Shown here: in pieces, positions 24,351-30,177 of the stretch
Position numbering within the stretch: position 1 is the stretch's first letter
How the letters are laid out: every line of letters starts with the position of its first letter
Source of the DNA: an uncultured Alphaproteobacteria bacterium
GTDB lineage: Bacteria; Pseudomonadota; Alphaproteobacteria; HIMB59
DNA: 37,289 nucleotides
Direction: 5' to 3'
NCBI GenBank assembly: GCA_902574995.1
Contig: CACGPP010000009.1
Span: 1 to 37,289, forward strand
Position numbers and translations under genes: made by a program
The notes under the pieces: generated by a model
What the model was told of the DNA's origin: nothing
Seen by the model: only the letters and a program-made list of their open reading frames with translations
The model's database searches: none

Positions 24351-24425
24351 TGGCGGTTCTGCAAGGATTCGAACCCTGAATTCTTGATCCGTAGTCAAGT
24401 GTGATATCCGTTTCACCACAGAACC
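24351..24425 (-). tRNA. tRNA-Arg(ACG)
   Basis: On the minus strand the acceptor stem GGTTCTG pairs with CAGAACC. The D arm is GTG...CAC, the anticodon stem CTTGA/TCAAG encloses the loop CTACGGA with anticodon ACG, and the T arm is CAGGG TTCGAAT CCTTG. It ends with G and an encoded CCA. The tRNA is complete and reads CGN codons after A34 is converted to inosine. Its 5' half (39 bp, 24387-24425) is repeated exactly at 26913-26951 and 28374-28412, so this gene is the integration target for the neighbouring elements. Its 5' half and promoter were probably supplied by the last element inserted. Confidence 0.97.
24387..24425 (-). repeat. Attachment-site core, copy 1 (within the intact tRNA-Arg)
   Basis: 39 bp covering the tRNA from its first base through the anticodon loop. 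It is identical to copies 2 and 3. On the left the sequence continues as the tRNA 3' half, and the other two copies diverge there, so the crossover lies in or beside the anticodon loop. Confidence 0.9.
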
Positions 24426-24435
24426 TTATTACTGA

Positions 24436-24441
24436 TTTATA
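24436..24441 (-). promoter_or_regulatory. -10 box of the tRNA-Arg promoter
   Basis: TATAAA on the minus strand, 10 bp before the tRNA start. It lies in a 19-bp stretch (24433-24451) that recurs exactly at 28420-28438, at the same distance from core copy 3. Copy 2 instead has TATACT at 26960-26965. No convincing -35 box is seen. Confidence 0.5.
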
Positions 24442-24477
24442 TACTCTTTTTTTGGATAATAAACTTGTATGGGAGAG

Positions 24478-24499
24478 TCAATACACACTCAGTACACAC
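24478..24499. repeat. Element 1 left arm-site repeat
   Basis: A tandem motif of two TCAnTACACA units, 53 bp from core copy 1. It recurs with one mismatch at the far end of element 1. The pairing and spacing suggest binding sites for the N-terminal domain of a tyrosine recombinase. Confidence 0.55.
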
Positions 24500-24500
24500 A

Positions 24501-24938
24501 TCAACAATATTTTCTATTGTATTCCTCAACTCTTTCAAAATTTTCACCAAATAAACCATAAAGTACACATGTGGCATGAAGTTCAACACTAGGGTTAATA
24601 TTTGGATAATTCTCAAACTCCTCAAAAACACCAACAATTTGATGAGCGTAGGCCCAACGCAAATCATACTTAAATTTTCTCGGAAAAACCTCATCGATAT
24701 AGGCATTCCAAAATAGTTTCATTCTCTTTTCTACATATCTACAACGCATAGGTGTTTTAGCGTATTTTTTAATTGTAGGCCTTACTTTGTTGAGCATTTC
24801 TTGAAACGTTAAATCATTCACAAACCCACACTCTGGCAAATCATCAAAAACGAGGTCCCAATCATCAAATTCAAAAATTATATTCAGTACATCAGCAACT
24901 TCTTTTACTTCAGGGTCTTGGATGATTTTCAATTTCAT
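24501..24938 (-). CDS. Unknown protein, element 1 cargo
   Basis: A 145-residue soluble protein, rich in aromatic and acidic residues, with no signal peptide or membrane segment. It contains FDDWDLVFDDLPECGF, a basic middle (RCRYVEKRMKLFWNAYIDEV) and a C-terminal HATCVLYGLFGENF stretch. I recognise no family. The 3' end abuts the left arm repeat of element 1, and it is divergent from the next gene with 59 bp between. An overlapping frame in the same interval looks like a shadow. Confidence 0.6.
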   Translation of the reverse strand: MKLKIIQDPEVKEVADVLNIIFEFDDWDLVFDDLPECGFVNDLTFQEMLNKVRPTIKKYAKTPMRCRYVEKRMKLFWNAYIDEVFPRKFKYDLRWAYAHQIVGVFEEFENYPNINPSVELHATCVLYGLFGENFERVEEYNRKYC

Positions 24939-24997
24939 TAAAATATAATATTATTAATTTAAACTCATGAGCCAAGGTATTTTTTAAAGGACTGATT

Positions 24998-25828
24998 TTG
25001 AGTCTCATTAAACCAAGCTATAACTCTTATAAGAATGGATTAGGAACAAAGTTTGAAAAAGTAGATAATAAAGTGCTTAAGATGATGAGGGAAAATCCAG
25101 AGGGTTTTCGAATAAAAGGTAAAAAAGAAATGTTAGCTAAGTACTCAATAGATAACAATTCTTATGTAAAATCATTTGATAGAATTCAAAAGGCTAATCT
25201 AAATAAAGATTTAAAAAAATTTGTATTTCCATCACGAAATGAGTTAATTAAAAATAAAAAAGAAAAAAGAAATCAAGATTTATTAAAAAAAATTAAAATT
25301 TTTAATAAAAAAGATGAGGCTATTGTAGCTTCTGGTTTATCAAAATCTCATTTTAACAGAGTATTAAGAGAACAAGGTATTAAAACAGAAGATTTAAACC
25401 TAGAAGTTGGTAAAAGAGGCACTCCAGATACTAGTGAAAAAAAAACAAATATTCTAAATAACTATTTAAAGAAAAATGTCAAAAGGAACTTTACTAGAGG
25501 GCAATTGGCAGATGCCGTTGGAATGCCAAGAAGCTATGTTAAAGATAAAAGAATTTTCCAAACAAATTTACCCAACTTAGTTACTTATAAAGAACTAAAA
25601 GGTAATGAATTTGATAAAAAAATTGATGAAATGAATATCTTAATAAAAGATATAAAGGTTGGTAAAGTAAAACCTAATATGGGTGAAATGTATTATAAAA
25701 AAATGGGATACAGGCTTCCTGACAAACTAACCAAGAACTATTTAGAATTTCCTGAAAAAGGTAATACTTCAAAGCTCATTGTCAAAAAAACAAAACTATC
25801 CTTATTAATTGGTAAAAGTAAAAAGTAA
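24998..25828 (+). CDS. Basic protein with two HTH-like segments, element 1 cargo
   Basis: A 276-residue, strongly basic (lysine-rich) protein starting at TTG with AAAGG about 8 bp upstream. Two segments look like helix-turn-helix units: about residues 103-127 (DEAIVASGLSKSHFNRVLRE) and about 165-185 (FTRGQLADAVGMPRSYVKD). This suggests a DNA-binding regulator or an element-maintenance protein, but that is inference from pattern only. It leads a tight run of three genes; the next ATG is 1 bp after its stop. No known family is recognised. Confidence 0.65.
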   Translation: MSLIKPSYNSYKNGLGTKFEKVDNKVLKMMRENPEGFRIKGKKEMLAKYSIDNNSYVKSFDRIQKANLNKDLKKFVFPSRNELIKNKKEKRNQDLLKKIKIFNKKDEAIVASGLSKSHFNRVLREQGIKTEDLNLEVGKRGTPDTSEKKTNILNNYLKKNVKRNFTRGQLADAVGMPRSYVKDKRIFQTNLPNLVTYKELKGNEFDKKIDEMNILIKDIKVGKVKPNMGEMYYKKMGYRLPDKLTKNYLEFPEKGNTSKLIVKKTKLSLLIGKSKK

Positions 25829-25829
25829 A

Positions 25830-26525
25830 ATGAGTTCAAAGAAAGAAATTAAAATTAAATTTGAGTTATTTGAAAATCAGCCAGATGAGTGGATTCTTAT
25901 TGAATACTATGCTGATATTAAAATTACAAATCTAGCTTTTAGTAATATAGATTTTTCTAATTACAAAGGATTACAAGTGTTTGGAAGTAAAGTACAAAAT
26001 CAATATTTTAAAAAACCTGAATTACTTCCTTCAAATGGATTTCCAACAAGATTTGAATTAGAAGAAGTTCAATTCCTTGAGGAAAATGATGGATTTAGGT
26101 GTGAGCCACCTGAAGAAATTCACAGAGTCAAAGATGGTTTTGTTTTGAGTGATTATAACCACATACGATTATTTATGTCTTTTTTGGCATATGTTACAAG
26201 AGAGATGTATCAGAAATTTTCTATGAGTTATAAAACCATTTTGAATTTAGAAGCAGAGGAAGAAGATGTTGAGTGGCGTGGTAAAAAATGGAAACACCCA
26301 ACTGAGAATGAAAAGGATATTAAAAATTTAGCTAAGTTTATTACAGATAATTATGATAATTTTTTTTTTAAACCTAAAGAATTTAGAAAAAACTTTAATA
26401 AAATATTAGAAAAAAATTCAATTGAGATGACAGAGTATGATATAGAGCATGAAAGATTAGATGATAATGCTTACTGCCCCCTTGCTTATTATCAATTTAA
26501 ATTAAAAATAAAATTACATGACTAA
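25830..26525 (+). CDS. Unknown cytoplasmic protein, element 1 cargo
   Basis: A 231-residue protein, acidic and rich in aromatic residues, with no signal peptide or membrane segment. The frame could start earlier at a TTG (25809) inside the previous gene, but the ATG at 25830, just after that gene's stop, is more natural. The middle part contains AEEEDVEWRGKKWKHPTENE. I recognise no domain. It overlaps the next gene by 8 bp, so all three plus-strand genes of element 1 are probably one transcript. Confidence 0.65.
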   Translation: MSSKKEIKIKFELFENQPDEWILIEYYADIKITNLAFSNIDFSNYKGLQVFGSKVQNQYFKKPELLPSNGFPTRFELEEVQFLEENDGFRCEPPEEIHRVKDGFVLSDYNHIRLFMSFLAYVTREMYQKFSMSYKTILNLEAEEEDVEWRGKKWKHPTENEKDIKNLAKFITDNYDNFFFKPKEFRKNFNKILEKNSIEMTEYDIEHERLDDNAYCPLAYYQFKLKIKLHD

Positions 26526-26817
26526 AATAATTTTCACTTTCTTTCTTATATTTGCTTACAGTTTCTCAAACGCATCTGGCCATTACAATTTTTGTGAAAA
26601 TCAAAAAAAAAGTATAGAGTCTCTTATGATTTCAATTGAAGACTCAAGATGGTATATAAATAACTCATCTGGATATTCTACATTATGGGACCCCAATAAA
26701 GAGGATAGAGCTTATAAAAATGAACAAGATTTTAAAAACTTTTATAGAGAAAAACTTTTAAAAGCTGAAGATAGATTATATATAACATCTGAAATATATA
26801 AGAACCTATGTAATTAA
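26518..26817 (+). CDS. Small secreted protein, element 1 cargo
   Basis: A 99-residue protein with a signal peptide (MTKIIFTFFLIFAYSFSNAS). The mature part of about 80 residues has one cysteine near each end (NFCENQ and NLCN), which suggests a disulfide closing the domain. No family is recognised. It is the last gene of the element 1 operon, ending 4 bp before the right arm repeat. Confidence 0.65.
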   Translation: MTKIIFTFFLIFAYSFSNASGHYNFCENQKKSIESLMISIEDSRWYINNSSGYSTLWDPNKEDRAYKNEQDFKNFYREKLLKAEDRLYITSEIYKNLCN

Positions 26818-26820
26818 ATC

Positions 26821-26842
26821 TCAATACACAGTCAGTACACAC
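26821..26842. repeat. Element 1 right arm-site repeat
   Basis: The 22-bp partner of 24478-24499, one mismatch, same orientation, starting 92 bp left of core copy 2. It is unlike the arm repeat of element 2. Confidence 0.55.
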
Positions 26843-26848
26843 TCCAAT

Positions 26849-26951
26849 GATAAAACTATGTTAAAGCTCCAAGAATTGTATTGATAATAAATGAATTAAA
26901 GAGACGTAGGATATCCGTAGTCAAGTGTGATATCCGTTTCACCACAGAACC
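26849..26951. repeat. 103-bp repeat holding core copy 2 (right end of element 1)
   Basis: Matches 28310-28412 without gaps and with 5 mismatches, all in the first 35 bp. The last 39 bp (26913-26951) are the tRNA-Arg 5' half. The 64 bp to the left are element sequence taking the place of the tRNA 3' half. The offset to the partner is exactly 1461 bp. Confidence 0.9.
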
Positions 26952-26959
26952 TTAATCTA

Positions 26960-26965
26960 AGTATA
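26960..26965 (-). promoter_or_regulatory. -10-like box beside core copy 2
   Basis: TATACT on the minus strand, 8 bp before the first base of the tRNA 5' half in copy 2. It sits where a tRNA promoter would be. It may have driven the tRNA before element 1 inserted. Confidence 0.4.
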
Positions 26966-27003
26966 TCACCATAATTCAATCGTTGTACTTAATCCTACGA
27001 AAC

Positions 27004-27028
27004 TCATTACGGAGCCATTACGGGCAAC
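27004..27028. repeat. Element 2 left arm-site repeat
   Basis: Contains two CATTACGG(GC) units in tandem, 53 bp right of core copy 2. It recurs with four mismatches in the spacer at 28282-28306. Confidence 0.55.
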
Positions 27029-27046
27029 GAATGAAGAAGGGATATA

Positions 27047-27202
27047 ATGGGAACAATAACTAGACGAAAGATGAAAGATGTAAAGGGCAATCGCTATGTC
27101 TTATTTCAAGCATAGGCGAACATGAAGGGACAAAGATATTCCCGAGCTTTTCAATATATGCGGGAAGCAAGGGCTTACATTAGCGAACAAAAGGGATTAA
27201 TC
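27047..27202 (+). pseudogene. Truncated tyrosine-recombinase integrase (N-terminal arm-binding part)
   Basis: From the ATG at 27047 the frame reads MGTITRRKMKDVKGNRYVLF, then QA, a TAG at 27113-27115, then ANMKGQRYSRAFQYMREARA and YISEQKGLI. The MGTIT-R-K start and the KGQRYS...REARAYISEQ pattern resemble the N-terminal domain of phage-type integrases, where it binds arm sites. After about 52 codons the similarity stops, and no catalytic R-H-R-Y domain follows. It lies just inside the left end of element 2, where an integrase gene is expected. The identification is from pattern memory of the family. Confidence 0.6.
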
Positions 27203-27223
27203 AGTAGAGGTTGTTTGTCGGGT

Positions 27224-27249
27224 GGAGGGAACAACGTTGTGTTTCCTCC
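27224..27249. other. Strong hairpin in the integrase-remnant tail
   Basis: Bases 27224-27233 pair with 27240-27249 (10 bp, one G-U wobble, six-base loop) with a GGAGG/CCTCC base. A second hairpin, AGAGGT/ACCTCT, follows around 27263-27287. Neither has a T-run on the plus strand. They lie at the 3' end of the converging foreign gene (ends 27287) and could stop or stabilise that transcript. Confidence 0.4.
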
Positions 27250-27286
27250 CCCCTTAGTAGTGCAGAGGTGTGAAATCTTCAAACCT

Positions 27287-27691
27287 CTAGTTAAAGGGGT
27301 AAAGTTCCCAAACTGCTTTGCCATCTGCATCGGCTTCGTAAGTAAATGCGTAAAATTTACCATTCAGTTCAGATAACGCTTCAGATGTGGTTTCGAATAT
27401 AGCGCCGCCTCTAAAAGAAGTGCCTCCATCTTTCCTCTGGTTTCCGACACCCGTAGCTTTATATGTGGCGACACCTTCTGCACACATTACAACCCCAGCA
27501 TAGGCATTTCCTGCCCATGAACCATCTGGTCTCATTTCGGCTGTAAATGCGCCCATAGACTGAACATCATGACCTAGCATCGTTCCGCTCCCTTCAGCAG
27601 TAATGTCCATAGCAGGTAAACCATATTTACCAGAGTCCATTGGCTTATTAGTTTCCTGTAATGTCATTGTTCCAATTTTATCACCAAGCAT
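27287..27691 (-). CDS. Unknown GC-richer protein, element 2 cargo
   Basis: A 134-residue protein with an ATG start and a strong AAAGGAG Shine-Dalgarno 7-8 bp upstream. It is rich in Gly, Ala and Thr and looks like an all-beta fold (repeated short strands such as GSWAGNAYAGVVMC and GKFYAFTYEADADG). No signal peptide and no family recognised. Two sampled 60-bp stretches (27481-27600) are 50-52% GC, against about 30% for the window, so the gene looks recently acquired from a different genome. It is divergent from the cupin gene. Confidence 0.7.
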   Translation of the reverse strand: MLGDKIGTMTLQETNKPMDSGKYGLPAMDITAEGSGTMLGHDVQSMGAFTAEMRPDGSWAGNAYAGVVMCAEGVATYKATGVGNQRKDGGTSFRGGAIFETTSEALSELNGKFYAFTYEADADGKAVWELYPFN

Positions 27692-27827
27692 TGTTAATCT
27701 CCTTTTCTAAAATTTATAAAATAAATGATTATAATAATTACTTGTTAAGAGTATTATTTCTTTTTTTAAATATATATATTACTCATTTGCAATAAATAAT
27801 ATTTTTTTAGATGTTATAAGAGTTTAT

Positions 27828-28259
27828 ATGTATATTTATACTAAAAAATTTAGGTTTATATTTCTTTTTTCAATTTTTCTATTTAGTTTTGGATTTTTAC
27901 ATTCTGAGGAACATCTCAAAACTAAAATTTCCCCTGTTTTAAAATCTGCAACTACAATATTAGGAAATGAAATATATTATCCTGATGGAAAAGCTGAAAT
28001 AGTGTCATTTATAGTTGAGGTGCCTCCTGGTGGTGTAACTCCAAACCATGTTCATTCTTACCCTGTTTATATTTACATTATGGAAGGAGAGATGACATAT
28101 ACTTGGGAAGACGGAACAGTTACTATTTACAAACCTGGTAAAGCATATATAGAGGATAGTAAAAGTGCTCATTACGGAAAAAATTTAGGTGACATAACAC
28201 TCAAAGCGCTGATAGTGGGCATTGGTGCAGAGGGTATAAAATTTACAACCTCTCCTTAA
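27828..28259 (+). CDS. Secreted cupin-domain protein, element 2 cargo
   Basis: A 143-residue exported protein: signal peptide (about residues 1-26, ending near FLHSEE), then a single cupin barrel. Cupin motif 1 is seen in PPGGVTPNHVHSYPVYIYIM with its two histidines and EGEM, and motif 2 is PGKAYIEDSKSAHYGKN. The metal-binding pattern is largely conserved. The function is unknown; periplasmic cupins can be sugar isomerases, dioxygenases or sensors. Codon use is as AT-rich as the core genome, unlike its divergent neighbour. Confidence 0.8.
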   Translation: MYIYTKKFRFIFLFSIFLFSFGFLHSEEHLKTKISPVLKSATTILGNEIYYPDGKAEIVSFIVEVPPGGVTPNHVHSYPVYIYIMEGEMTYTWEDGTVTIYKPGKAYIEDSKSAHYGKNLGDITLKALIVGIGAEGIKFTTSP

Positions 28260-28281
28260 AACTAAATTTTTAGCTATATTT

Positions 28282-28306
28282 TCATTACGGGCTTATTACG
28301 GGCAAC
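28282..28306. repeat. Element 2 right arm-site repeat
   Basis: The 25-bp partner of 27004-27028: two ATTACGGGC units separated by TT. It starts 92 bp left of core copy 3, the same geometry as the right arm of element 1. Confidence 0.55.
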
Positions 28307-28309
28307 ATA

Positions 28310-28412
28310 GATAAAATGTTGTTAAAGCTCAAAGAATAGTATTGATAATAAATGAATTAAAGAGACGTAGGATATCCGTAGTCAAGTGTGATATCCGTTT
28401 CACCACAGAACC
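28310..28412. repeat. 103-bp repeat holding core copy 3 (right end of element 2)
   Basis: The partner of 26849-26951, with the tRNA-Arg 5' half at 28374-28412. To its right, 28420-28438 matches the promoter region of the intact tRNA exactly. That stretch is either the original tRNA promoter or the left end of a third element. Confidence 0.9.
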
Positions 28413-28474
28413 AATAGCTTGATTTATATACTCTTTTTATTAATAATAAAATTTAATACAATGTTTTTAGGGAC

Positions 28475-28490
28475 TCAATACGGGCAAAAC
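28475..28490. repeat. Single arm-like unit beside core copy 3
   Basis: TCAATACGGGCAAAAC, 62 bp right of core copy 3, similar to one unit of the element 2 arm repeat. It ends 1 bp before the lyase start codon. A matching right-hand partner was not found up to 37289. Confidence 0.35.
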
Positions 28491-28491
28491 T

Positions 28492-29394
28492 ATGAAGACA
28501 TTCTTAACTTTATTTATATTTTTGCCAAGTTTAGTGCTTGCCTCAAGTTTTAGTGAAATTAAAAAAGCTTTAAAACAAGATGGTTTTGGAGAAATAATCC
28601 CTGAAGAACTTCATCCATTAATCTCTCCAAATGCAAAAAATCCTATATCAGTTAGCGGCAATTCAATTATTGGAGATAAATCCTTAAAGTTTGAAGTTAA
28701 TAATGGAGAGTGCGGAGAAGAACCTAAATCAAGTGACTGTGATACAGATAGAGAGAGGTCTGAAATATATTACAGCCACGAAAAGTGGAAAAAAGAGAAG
28801 TGGTATAAGTTTAATATTTTTCTTCCAAAAGATTACAATTCTATTGCCCCTGCAAAAATGTCTTTAATCCAATGGAAAAGACATAACCCATCTAAAGTTT
28901 TAGTCATGTTTCAACACACTCATGCAGGATTAACTTTTAACAGGAATAAAGACTCTTTTGAGGACTCCCACATAATTTTAAAAAGCAATGATGTACTTTT
29001 AGGCCAATGGACAGAAATAATTTTTAACACAAATTGGCATCCAGATGAGGACAAAGGTTTCATGAAGGTATGGATTGATGGGATTTTAAAAATAGATTTT
29101 AAAGGAACTAGCAATACATCTAAGGGTGAGGAACTAAATCTTAGATATGGACTGTACGCCTCTGCCATATCACGTTATAAAAAAGCATTTAATACTGAGA
29201 TAATTCCACAGCGTATCGTTTATTTTGATGGTGTAAATGCAGAGTCAAAATGTGAAAAGTTACTAGATAAACCTAAATGTAATAATTTAACTTCTCAAAC
29301 AATCGAAAAATACGAATTATTTATGTATGATAAAAATGATATAAAATTTCACAATCATTCTGTTGTTAAATTACCTATAAACTTTTTGAAATAA
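28492..29394 (+). CDS. Secreted polysaccharide lyase (heparin lyase I-like)
   Basis: A 300-residue exported protein with signal peptide MKTFLTLFIFLPSLVLAS and a beta-jelly-roll domain like the Polysacc_lyase family (PF14099). Visible family features are RSEIYY near residue 84, WYKFNIFLPKDY, the QWKRH segment, GQWTEIIFNTNWHPDEDKGF and VWIDGILKIDF, ending with LRYGLYASAISRY. Such proteins bind or cleave acidic polysaccharides such as alginate or glucuronans; the substrate here is not known. It directly follows the arm-like unit at att copy 3 and ends immediately before the ion-channel ATG. Confidence 0.75.
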   Translation: MKTFLTLFIFLPSLVLASSFSEIKKALKQDGFGEIIPEELHPLISPNAKNPISVSGNSIIGDKSLKFEVNNGECGEEPKSSDCDTDRERSEIYYSHEKWKKEKWYKFNIFLPKDYNSIAPAKMSLIQWKRHNPSKVLVMFQHTHAGLTFNRNKDSFEDSHIILKSNDVLLGQWTEIIFNTNWHPDEDKGFMKVWIDGILKIDFKGTSNTSKGEELNLRYGLYASAISRYKKAFNTEIIPQRIVYFDGVNAESKCEKLLDKPKCNNLTSQTIEKYELFMYDKNDIKFHNHSVVKLPINFLK

Positions 29395-30177
29395 ATGAAA
29401 CAAACCTTTTTTAAAATACGAGAAAGCAAGTTATTTCAATACTCAGTTTTATTTATCATTATATTTAATGCATTTACTATCGGTTTAAATACTTACAATT
29501 TAGGAGAGTTCTCAAGAGAGCTCATAAAATATCTCGATTATTTGATAACTATTTTTTTTGTAATAGAAATCTCAATTCGTTTTATTGGTGAACCTAGAAA
29601 ATCAAATTTTTTTAAAAGTGGTTGGAATATTTTTGACACTTTTATTGTTTTGGTATCATTGATACCAATACCTAACAACTCCAGTTTTCTTCTGTTAAGA
29701 TTATTGAGAGTGTTTAGAGTTTTAAGAGTCATATCTATTATTCCTGAGTTAAAATTAATCATTGAGTCATTGATTGGATCGTTAAAAAGAGTGTTTTATG
29801 TAAGTTTGCTGCTTTTCATAATTCTCTATATTTATGCGACTATTGGAGCAATAGTCTTTTCAAATAGCATACCCGAGAGATGGTCTGATGTGGGAGTTTC
29901 AATGATTACTTTATTTCAAGTTTTAACATTATCATCTTGGGAGCAGGTAATGTTGCCACTTCAAGATATTTATTGGTGGGCATGGATTTATTTTTTTAGT
30001 TTTATAATTGTCTGTGCCATTACAATGTTAAATCTTCTAATAGCAATTTTGGTTGATGTAGTTGTAAATCAGAACGAAAAAAAAGATGATATGATAAAAA
30101 CCAGAAATAATGCTGAAAAACTAAATGAACAATTTTCTGAGGAGATCAGTTTAGATAAACTAAAAAAAGATCAATAA
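29395..30177 (+). CDS. NaChBac-like voltage-gated ion channel with TLSSW filter
   Basis: A 260-residue six-helix channel subunit. S1-S3 span about residues 12-95. S4 holds arginines R102, R105, R108 and R111 at three-residue spacing. The pore loop ITLFQVLTLSSWEQVM has the filter T178-L-S-S-W-E183, and S6 is about 194-222, followed by a charged C-terminal helix. Canonical bacterial sodium channels have TLESW; here the key glutamate is serine and an acidic residue appears three positions later. Channels of this type are tetramers. The start codon follows the lyase stop directly, and the stop overlaps the next ATG by 1 bp, suggesting an operon. Confidence 0.88.
   Translation: MKQTFFKIRESKLFQYSVLFIIIFNAFTIGLNTYNLGEFSRELIKYLDYLITIFFVIEISIRFIGEPRKSNFFKSGWNIFDTFIVLVSLIPIPNNSSFLLLRLLRVFRVLRVISIIPELKLIIESLIGSLKRVFYVSLLLFIILYIYATIGAIVFSNSIPERWSDVGVSMITLFQVLTLSSWEQVMLPLQDIYWWAWIYFFSFIIVCAITMLNLLIAILVDVVVNQNEKKDDMIKTRNNAEKLNEQFSEEISLDKLKKDQ

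Follow-up and report, generated by a model that had tools for sequence, protein, structure and literature searches.

Probable CIME-like cassettes without integrases, inserted in succession at tRNA-Arg(ACG) in HIMB59/AEGEAN-169 bacteria

Cis-mobilizable elements (CIMEs) are described as decayed integrative and conjugative elements (ICEs) or integrative and mobilizable elements (IMEs) that possess no integration or transfer genes, retain attL and attR and can stand in tandem at one site (PMC5704250; this and other published systems are compared here on the basis of excerpts of the papers cited). A similar layout was found at tRNA-Arg(ACG) in a stretch of 37,289 nucleotides, referred to as the window, which makes up all of contig C9 of genome G000 (HIMB59/AEGEAN-169; genome data of 1,155,577 bases, 73.8% complete). 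The array comprises element 1 (2526 bp, beside the tRNA gene), element 2 (1461 bp) and an older, truncated element 3. None of 97 matches to the integrase family PF00589 lies in the array, where a relic is present in element 2 and its variants; scans of the open reading frames (ORFs) of the window yielded no transfer genes; and both complete elements of the window have a core, a conserved end and arm repeats on each side, which would correspond to attL and attR. Unlike CIMEs as described, these are gene-sized units at a tRNA 5' half, for which no conjugation gene or ICE partner was seen; descent from an ICE or IME would have left the integrase relic of element 2 as its only trace, no conjugation gene having been observed in the window's elements.

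Among marine and freshwater bacteria, some of them streamlined, the additive islands of Candidatus Actinomarinales (PMC7771536) and Alteromonas (PMC4119200) consist of cassettes added at tRNA genes with partial tRNA repeats, and flexible genomic island fGI-2 of the Methylophilaceae (PMC10872708) is likewise additive, its repeats being copies of the final 20 bp of tRNA-Lys. Presence and absence of cassettes at a tRNA gene and partial tRNA repeats were also found here, together with features beyond the descriptions seen of those islands, namely arm repeats with matched motifs, left ends resembling the sequence upstream of the tRNA and an integrase relic. The ssrA islands of Dehalococcoides (PMC3146451) are similarly in tandem and bounded by short copies of an RNA gene, and 15 of them lack an integration module; another 16 carry a serine-recombinase module, whereas here none of 31 elements encodes an integrase, the relic belongs to the tyrosine class and it is the 5' half of the tRNA that is duplicated. 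Tycheposons (as summarised in PMC10872708 and PMC11389934) share integration at tRNA genes, the carriage of cargo and streamlined aquatic hosts. A comparison with them had been proposed, short of identity, in a preliminary description of this DNA; a tRNA gene does stand at the border, but tycheposons measure 4-200 kb and carry a tyrosine recombinase (PMC10872708), as against 0.65-2.5 kb without one (649-2526 bp across 31 elements), and CIMEs and additive tRNA islands are the closer relatives in kind. In the excerpts of HIMB59/AEGEAN-169 papers that were queried no account of the tRNA-Arg(ACG) locus appeared, which is not proof of its absence from print. For the Pelagibacterales, but not for HIMB59, tyrosine recombinases and tRNA genes have been reported beside an operon (PMC12416821, in part). 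The integrase, regulator, replication and packaging genes of a phage satellite were not found in the window's elements (Pfam, PHROGs). Integrons add small cassettes stepwise at one anchor by means of an enzyme that the cassette lacks; the array resembles them in this stepwise addition, but no integrase is present at its anchor (no PF00589 match) and its site is a tRNA loop with arm-type repeats.

The array is most plausibly a series of integrase-less, CIME-like cassettes, which tyrosine integrases acting in trans inserted successively at tRNA-Arg(ACG), into the anticodon loop; a probability of roughly 0.7 is given to this reading. Exact insertion at the anticodon loop, a rebuilt tRNA, matched arm repeats, the lack of an integrase and sharing among diverged hosts were established by comparison of sequences. 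As the sequences also show, an insertion keeps the 3' half of the tRNA gene, which is rebuilt because a new 5' half and upstream sequence are brought to it, and moves the old 5' half outward as a 39-bp scar. Tyrosine integrases binding the matched arm repeats at both ends would catalyse the insertion, the helper coming from another element or from a phage only briefly present; an enzyme acting in trans is suggested because no element encodes an integrase and because the relic in element 2 was dead before it spread. Cargo is swapped between fixed ends; in one case it also occurs in an integrase-bearing element of larger size at a different tRNA gene. Some cassettes have later been frozen through loss of their outer end.

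Within the window, repeat comparison bore out the preliminary description of three identical tRNA 5' halves of 39 bp (at 24387, 26913 and 28374), the first of which runs on into the intact 3' half (sequence and ARAGORN), of core spacings of 2526 and 1461 bp, and of a 103-bp block shared between 26849-26951 and 28310-28412 (95% identical, that is, 5 mismatches). The array had been placed at 24351-28412; its repeats are as described, while its end is not at 28412, since the older element 3 runs on to 29394 and has lost its right end. The inventory of cores was complete, with the arm-type repeats near both ends of the elements being an addition to it (Table 1). The tRNA gene, the only one identified in the window by ARAGORN, neighbours panC, and the sequence shared by the elements starts at its anticodon loop (TCCGTAG). 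In the genome data of G000 the core occurs at these three positions only (search at up to 3 mismatches; reversed-pattern control, 0).

The genus set comprised 52 genomes, with panC in 43 and the core in 41 (up to 3 mismatches); in other genera of the order the core was found in 0 of 110 genomes at the same threshold (41 of 162 overall). The site was examined in 43 sequences, from 42 relatives and G000. The core was present in 42 of these, once in 19, twice in 15 and three times in 8, and nearly always at the panC-tRNA site; in this count the core of G009 matches at 4 mismatches only, the contig of G006 starts in the tRNA and that of G008 ends before the core. Exceptions in place are the G006 contig and an extra core with 2 mismatches at tRNA-Arg(TCG) in G023:C7. 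A total of 31 core-bounded elements was recovered from 23 genomes, measuring 649-2526 bp including one core and carrying about a dozen cargo types which, in pairwise comparison, have little in common except the two ends.

After removal of the 2526 bp of element 1, G000 aligned with its nearest relative G044 over 6409 bp at 97.7% identity with 2 gap openings and an identical joint. The insertion is recent, since panC of the two genomes is 99.8% identical, and its cargo was found in none of the other sequences at the site. In this sole case that could be ordered by comparison the newest element adjoins the tRNA. Further filled and empty pairs were G045 against G041, G050 and G017, and G033 against G032; bases just outside the core vary among sites, about six differing between G033 and G032. 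A search had been recommended for alleles with an empty site, with a single element or with other cargo between identical cores; all three kinds exist in the genus. Nor is the three-copy arrangement fixed: the cargo of element 1 (two of its four ORFs searched) occurs in one other of 162 genomes of the order, at a different place. The proposal that non-autonomous cassettes stack by successive integrations at one tRNA gene is well supported by these comparative tests.

The ends of the elements are conserved. The right end ..TATTGATAATAAATGAATTAAAGAGACGTAGGAT was detected in 30 of 31 elements (up to 6 mismatches), while left ends fall into three types: 15 resemble the tRNA-adjoining sequence at empty sites (14 by script and G040_e2, with one base missing, by eye), 12 are of the element 2 type and 4 of a cupin type. 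The left end is presumed to supply the promoter of the tRNA; because a consensus scan did not rise above shuffles (18 sites against 20.6 expected), it is conservation and position that point to this role. Two pairs of 8-bp repeats, 11 bp apart and one near each end, were present in 10 of 12 representatives (one per cargo type). Left and right motifs match within an element to a score reached by 2 of 20,000 permutations, calculated over all 12 representatives with the cupin type included. Exact TACGGG-N5-TACGGG pairs in the 52 genomes lie in or directly beside the array in 24 of 25 cases (that of G016 just outside the last core; reversed control, 1), the 25th being in a related element of G023:C7, and five of six TACACAC-N4-TACACA pairs are at the array. 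The related element (L210, 7941-9530) is situated at tRNA-Arg(TCG) and has the right end of the ACG array. Its 5' half is a TCG/ACG hybrid, resembling TCG over the first 13 bases and ACG from base 22 onward, so that ends have crossed between two tRNA-Arg genes.

Element 2 is core-bounded in nine relatives, and G030 has a copy without the right core. Behind the left arms it codes MGTITRRKMKDVKGNRYVLFQA-stop and then goes on in frame. When 4200 frames were ranked with a profile built from six local integrases, the open version of this relic took first place (the typed peptide at E 1e-4, the G046, G040 and G038 frames at 3e-4 to 3e-3). There is moderate confidence that it represents an integrase N-terminus, and position and layout are consistent with this. 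The relic occurs in 13 of 52 genomes, within element 2 and its variants; nine of the 13 copies are interrupted by the same TAG, that of G047 carries a different stop and three are open. At the thresholds applied, the other cassettes yielded no relic. The earlier statement that the array holds no working integrase is correct in that none is encoded, and requires amendment for this relic.

Between G030 or G033 and the seven other TAG copies, which belong to another clade (14 pairs), panC is 79.6-81.6% identical and the element, including relic and spacers, 95.0-97.5%; since the same TAG is shared, element 2 crossed clades after the death of its integrase. On either side of the element G033 has diverged from the other clade (panC 80-82%, right flank gene F7 81-83%) but the element itself is 94.7-96.8% identical, so that the tract in common stops close to the cores. 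Other cassettes show a comparable disparity: the lyase cassettes of G026 and G046 are 98.6% identical (panC 80.8%), a cassette of G016 and G022 94.6% (panC 79.9%), and the cupin cassette of G005 is 94.8% identical to that of the window (panC 69.6%).

Several observations weigh against insertion by integrases in trans. None of the 97 PF00589 matches is at tRNA-Arg(ACG), no helper integrase for this gene was found around 20 PF00589 places of non-standard Xer size or position, and genome-wide searches of the 52 genomes with both arm patterns disclosed no integrase-bearing element, one TACACAC pair (G013:C4) lying outside that check. Viral contigs gave no match to the 39-bp core, to 23-base and degenerate 24-base patterns, to the right end or to the relic, and records near the host genome may be absent from that set. 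No attP, excised circle or activity was seen, circular forms having been sought by exact searches in viral contigs. The window's own stop-interrupted copy of the relic scores only E 0.9, and no relic emerged from tblastn with integrases of full length. A left arm pair is missing from the cupin type (4 elements; both representatives), G040_e1 has another right end, and by eye a single repeat is present on the right of G020_e1, G022_e2 and G040_e2 and on the left of G040_e1 and G047_e1. With regard to spread, one transfer would be enough for the pattern of element 2, because G030 and G033 are close (96.0% in panC, 96.3% in the element), and the lyase cassettes of G021/G024 are only 88.2% identical to that of G046 with panC at 96.7%. 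F7 of G030 is 91-95% identical to the other clade with panC at about 80%, indicating that larger tracts were also exchanged homologously. Conserved ends and core could act as a substrate for homologous recombination, which may explain part of the spread.

The search for a helper did reveal what other integrases of the genus look like. PF00589 matches, at least one in each genome, belong mostly to two conserved Xer-sized proteins, this label referring to size, spread and, for one protein, its neighbour, without a curated match. In the array no integrase-bearing element, such as might mobilise a CIME in cis, was seen in the 42 core-bearing sequences, some of which are short stretches of incomplete genomes. 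Integrase-bearing elements at other tRNA genes measure 3.3-9.8 kb; the 5' half is duplicated at tRNA-Ala(GGC) in G032 and at tRNA-Met in G037, and a 3' part at tRNA-Asp and tRNA-Arg(TCT). Cores with the 3' half have been described as typical of mycobacteriophages (PMC10865867, in part). By eye, the layout is like that of the array, with arm pairs at either end of the elements of G032, G037, G029, G050 and G051, one of the pairs directly preceding the integrase start. The single viral contig matched by the six-integrase profile, L279, has a part of tRNA-Met upstream of its integrase and was rejected, showing no sign of the ACG site.

A more specific form of the trans-integrase reading, put forward tentatively and with somewhat less than even odds, is that the cassettes are helper-dependent: gene-sized modules without an enzyme, each with a tRNA-repair end and an arm-repeat address, which several passing integrases would insert at one anticodon loop. 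Addresses of several types (TTACGGG, ATACACAC, GTACCGG, AACACAC) would set which helper moves a cassette, and the tRNA half with its upstream sequence would render insertion harmless. Such a system would be integron-like, with an integrase that is not resident.

It is also conceivable, if unlikely, that the elements are decayed islands, inserted long ago by integrases of their own that have since been lost, and now moved only by homologous recombination with tRNA, core and ends as arms. The relic in element 2, the shared stretches at element ends and the favouring of homologous recombination for HIMB59 phosphate islands (PMC10734472, in part) are in keeping with this, as are the F7 of G030 and the lyase cassettes of G021/G024 and G046, more diverged than panC; the hybrid tRNA half of G023 could be a homologous crossover of two tRNA halves. 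Against such exchange, the tract shared by G033 stops near the cores with diverged flanks on both sides, the lyase cassettes of G026 and G046 have different neighbours on both sides, and the newest cargo of G000 is in no other of the 43 sequences at the site. Arm motifs, moreover, match within elements and differ between them, which points to separate events made by integrases.

Decay in place, by which every element would have come in as a complete, autonomous island, integrase included, and been reduced on the spot, is very unlikely. Against it, diverged hosts have nearly equal copies in which one dead relic and one stop codon recur, no other cassette yielded a relic at the thresholds applied, and in several cassettes the cargo start codon stands directly behind the left arms (by eye), the position of the integrase start elsewhere; what it can claim is the integrase N-terminus retained by element 2 and the existence of integrase-bearing elements of 3.3-9.8 kb at other tRNA genes. 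Capture by the host recombinases XerC and XerD has in its favour that PF00589 matches, nearly all of Xer size, are present in all 52 genomes and that 16 of the 23 genomes with elements have Xer-sized matches alone. Matching pairs of arm-type repeats at the two ends are, in contrast, a mark of arm-binding integrases and not of Xer sites, and the relic resembles an arm-binding N-terminus, so that Xer capture appears highly improbable. Finally, a segmental duplication around the tRNA gene in which mobile elements played no part, suggested by the direct repetition of the 39-bp and 103-bp blocks and named beforehand as a possible refutation, can be dismissed in view of exact empty-site alleles, unrelated cargo between near-identical cores and sharing across diverged hosts.

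Table 1. Positions in the window of the tRNA gene, the core copies, the parts of the three elements and the right flank.
Feature	Position	Strand	Basis
tRNA-Arg(ACG), intact, integration target	24351..24425	-	ARAGORN + sequence
Core copy 1: tRNA 5' half, within whole gene	24387..24425	-	repeat comparison, core search
Element 1 left end, presumed tRNA promoter; resembles tRNA-adjoining sequence of empty sites (TGATTTATATACTC..)	24426..24466	-	end comparison
Element 1 left arm-type repeat pair CAATACACAC/CAGTACACAC, 11-bp period	24479..24499	.	arm-repeat search
Element 1 cargo block; 92.6% identical to block in integrase-bearing element of G023 at tRNA-Arg(TCT), L187:5440-7473	24500..26527	.	
Cargo ORF, 145 amino acids (aa), no family match; ratio of non-synonymous to synonymous substitution (dN/dS) 0.14 against G023 copy	24501..24938	-	
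Cargo ORF, 276 aa, no significant family match (one PHROG, E 0.04); dN/dS 0.23	24998..25828	+	
Cargo ORF, 238 aa, in-frame ATG at 25830, no family match; dN/dS 0.37	25809..26525	+	
Cargo ORF, 99 aa, apparent signal peptide (by eye)	26518..26817	+	
Element 1 right arm-type repeat pair CAATACACAG/CAGTACACAC	26822..26842	.	arm-repeat search
Element 1 conserved right end (..GTATTGATAATAAATGAATTAAAGAGACGTAGGAT)	26849..26912	.	end comparison
Core copy 2: displaced tRNA 5' half	26913..26951	-	repeat comparison, core search
Element 2 left end, second left-end type; arm pair CATTACGGAGC/CATTACGGGC at 27005-27025	26952..27025	-	end comparison
Probable relic of integrase N-terminal (arm-binding) domain, 52 codons, one TAG	27047..27202	+	profile search
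Cargo ORF, 134 aa, no family match; near-same protein in 13 genomes	27287..27691	-	
Cargo ORF, cupin protein (PF07883), 143 aa	27828..28259	+	
Element 2 right arm-type repeat pair CATTACGGGCT/TATTACGGGC	28283..28303	.	arm-repeat search
Element 2 conserved right end	28310..28373	.	end comparison
Core copy 3: displaced tRNA 5' half	28374..28412	-	repeat comparison, core search
Element 3, older: left end 28413-28488; polysaccharide lyase 28492-29394 (PF14099); right end and core lost	28413..29394	+	
Ion-channel gene (PF00520), right flank of array	29395..30177	+	Pfam

The proteins of element 1 had no match in Pfam, PADLOC or NCBIfam and a single weak one in PHROGs (E 0.04), and no relative of the 276-aa protein was confirmed in viral contigs. 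The cargo had been described as of unknown families throughout; this applies to element 1, while element 2 encodes a cupin protein and the adjoining element 3 a lyase. Transfer genes were sought in the window's elements with Pfam and PHROGs (nine ORFs) and with PADLOC and NCBIfam (seven ORFs), without result; the cargo of other genomes was scanned in part. Values of dN/dS for cargo genes ranged from 0.07 to 0.37 (pairs listed; simple counting method, most diverged pairs), from which the genes seem to be in use. Two otherwise different elements, G004_e2 and G013_e1, carry an HNH endonuclease among their cargo (PF01844, from a scan of the G004 copy).

The match between the cargo of element 1 and the block in G023 begins directly behind the left arm pair of element 1. 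The integrase encoded by the G023 element, of 9.8 kb, has an arm-binding domain (PF13356); with an HTH_17 match that falls short of its cut-off and a replication match that is weak, the element somewhat resembles a phage satellite. Elements of about 8-10 kb with a 424-aa integrase were present at tRNA-Arg(TCT) in four genomes (L187:1567-11418 in G023, L188, L189 and L190); that of G023, the one in which other genes were examined, has the sub-threshold HTH_17 and a weak DUF1376/primosomal match, which suggests a satellite. A near-identical stretch of 41 bp, which codes for the signal-peptide part LLALLLLIPSLSWG, was found at 29 places in 19 of the 52 genus genomes (for example L187:4920, L187:7464 and L210:8106) and at none in G000 at 3 mismatches. 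The remainders of the proteins behind it fall into 18 groups without mutual BLASTP match (26 of 29 grouped, three very short frames being omitted), so that the stretch looks like a portable signal-peptide module, in several cases within mobile elements.

The cupin gene alone forms an element of 649-660 bp in three relatives. Element 2 resembles a fusion of two cassettes, with the joint exactly at the core end of the cupin-only element. Element 3 is intact, as a core-bounded element of 1128-1147 bp, in six relatives; in the window and eight further relatives its right end and core are gone and the lyase stop codon merges into the start codon of the ion-channel gene (29391-29398 in the window, AAATAAATGAAAC; same joint in nine genomes). 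This joint may place a chromosomal gene under cassette transcription. In the empty-site genomes G017, G041 and G050 the ion-channel gene directly follows the tRNA. To its right, a few kb from the array, a block of three large genes (394, 268 and 773 aa) is present in G013, G030, G033, G040, G046 and G047 and absent in others.

Other tRNA genes were scanned for nearby copies of at least 22 bases (24 genes in G000 and 29 in G044; 1.2 to 13.7 kb on each side). A genuine partial copy lies close to just one of them, tRNA-Gly of G044; the remaining matches reflect similarity among adjacent tRNA genes. At tRNA-Arg(TCG) of G000 and G044 (L222 near 8030, L239 near 7992) an arm-like pair, GGGACAAATATGGGACA, is followed by the start codon of a secreted-looking protein, with no part of the tRNA duplicated at 22 bases or more. 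A stretch of 1.2 kb between a partial and a whole tRNA-Gly in L186 (G003:C4, 7690-8868) has arm-like GTCGGAG pairs near both ends and no PF00589 match, and is perhaps another integrase-less element, of a 3'-half type.

CIME accretion and additive tRNA islands were known before; the 31 integrase-less elements, the several arm addresses, the repair of the tRNA on its 5' side and a dead relic that has travelled are what the present array adds to them. Streamlined ocean bacteria have small genomes in which few mobile elements are obvious, and to the open question of how they come by genes singly this locus gives an answer that can be tested at the level of bases: it offers precisely placed sites, end repeats that match, alleles from wild cells with and without insertions, and a cassette that passed between species after the loss of its integrase. 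The loosely defined class of additive tRNA islands also gains a searchable example whose ends are defined, and the reading predicts a missing helper whose binding sites would be known. If correct, a helper-dependent system would let a streamlined genome add genes singly, cassette by cassette.

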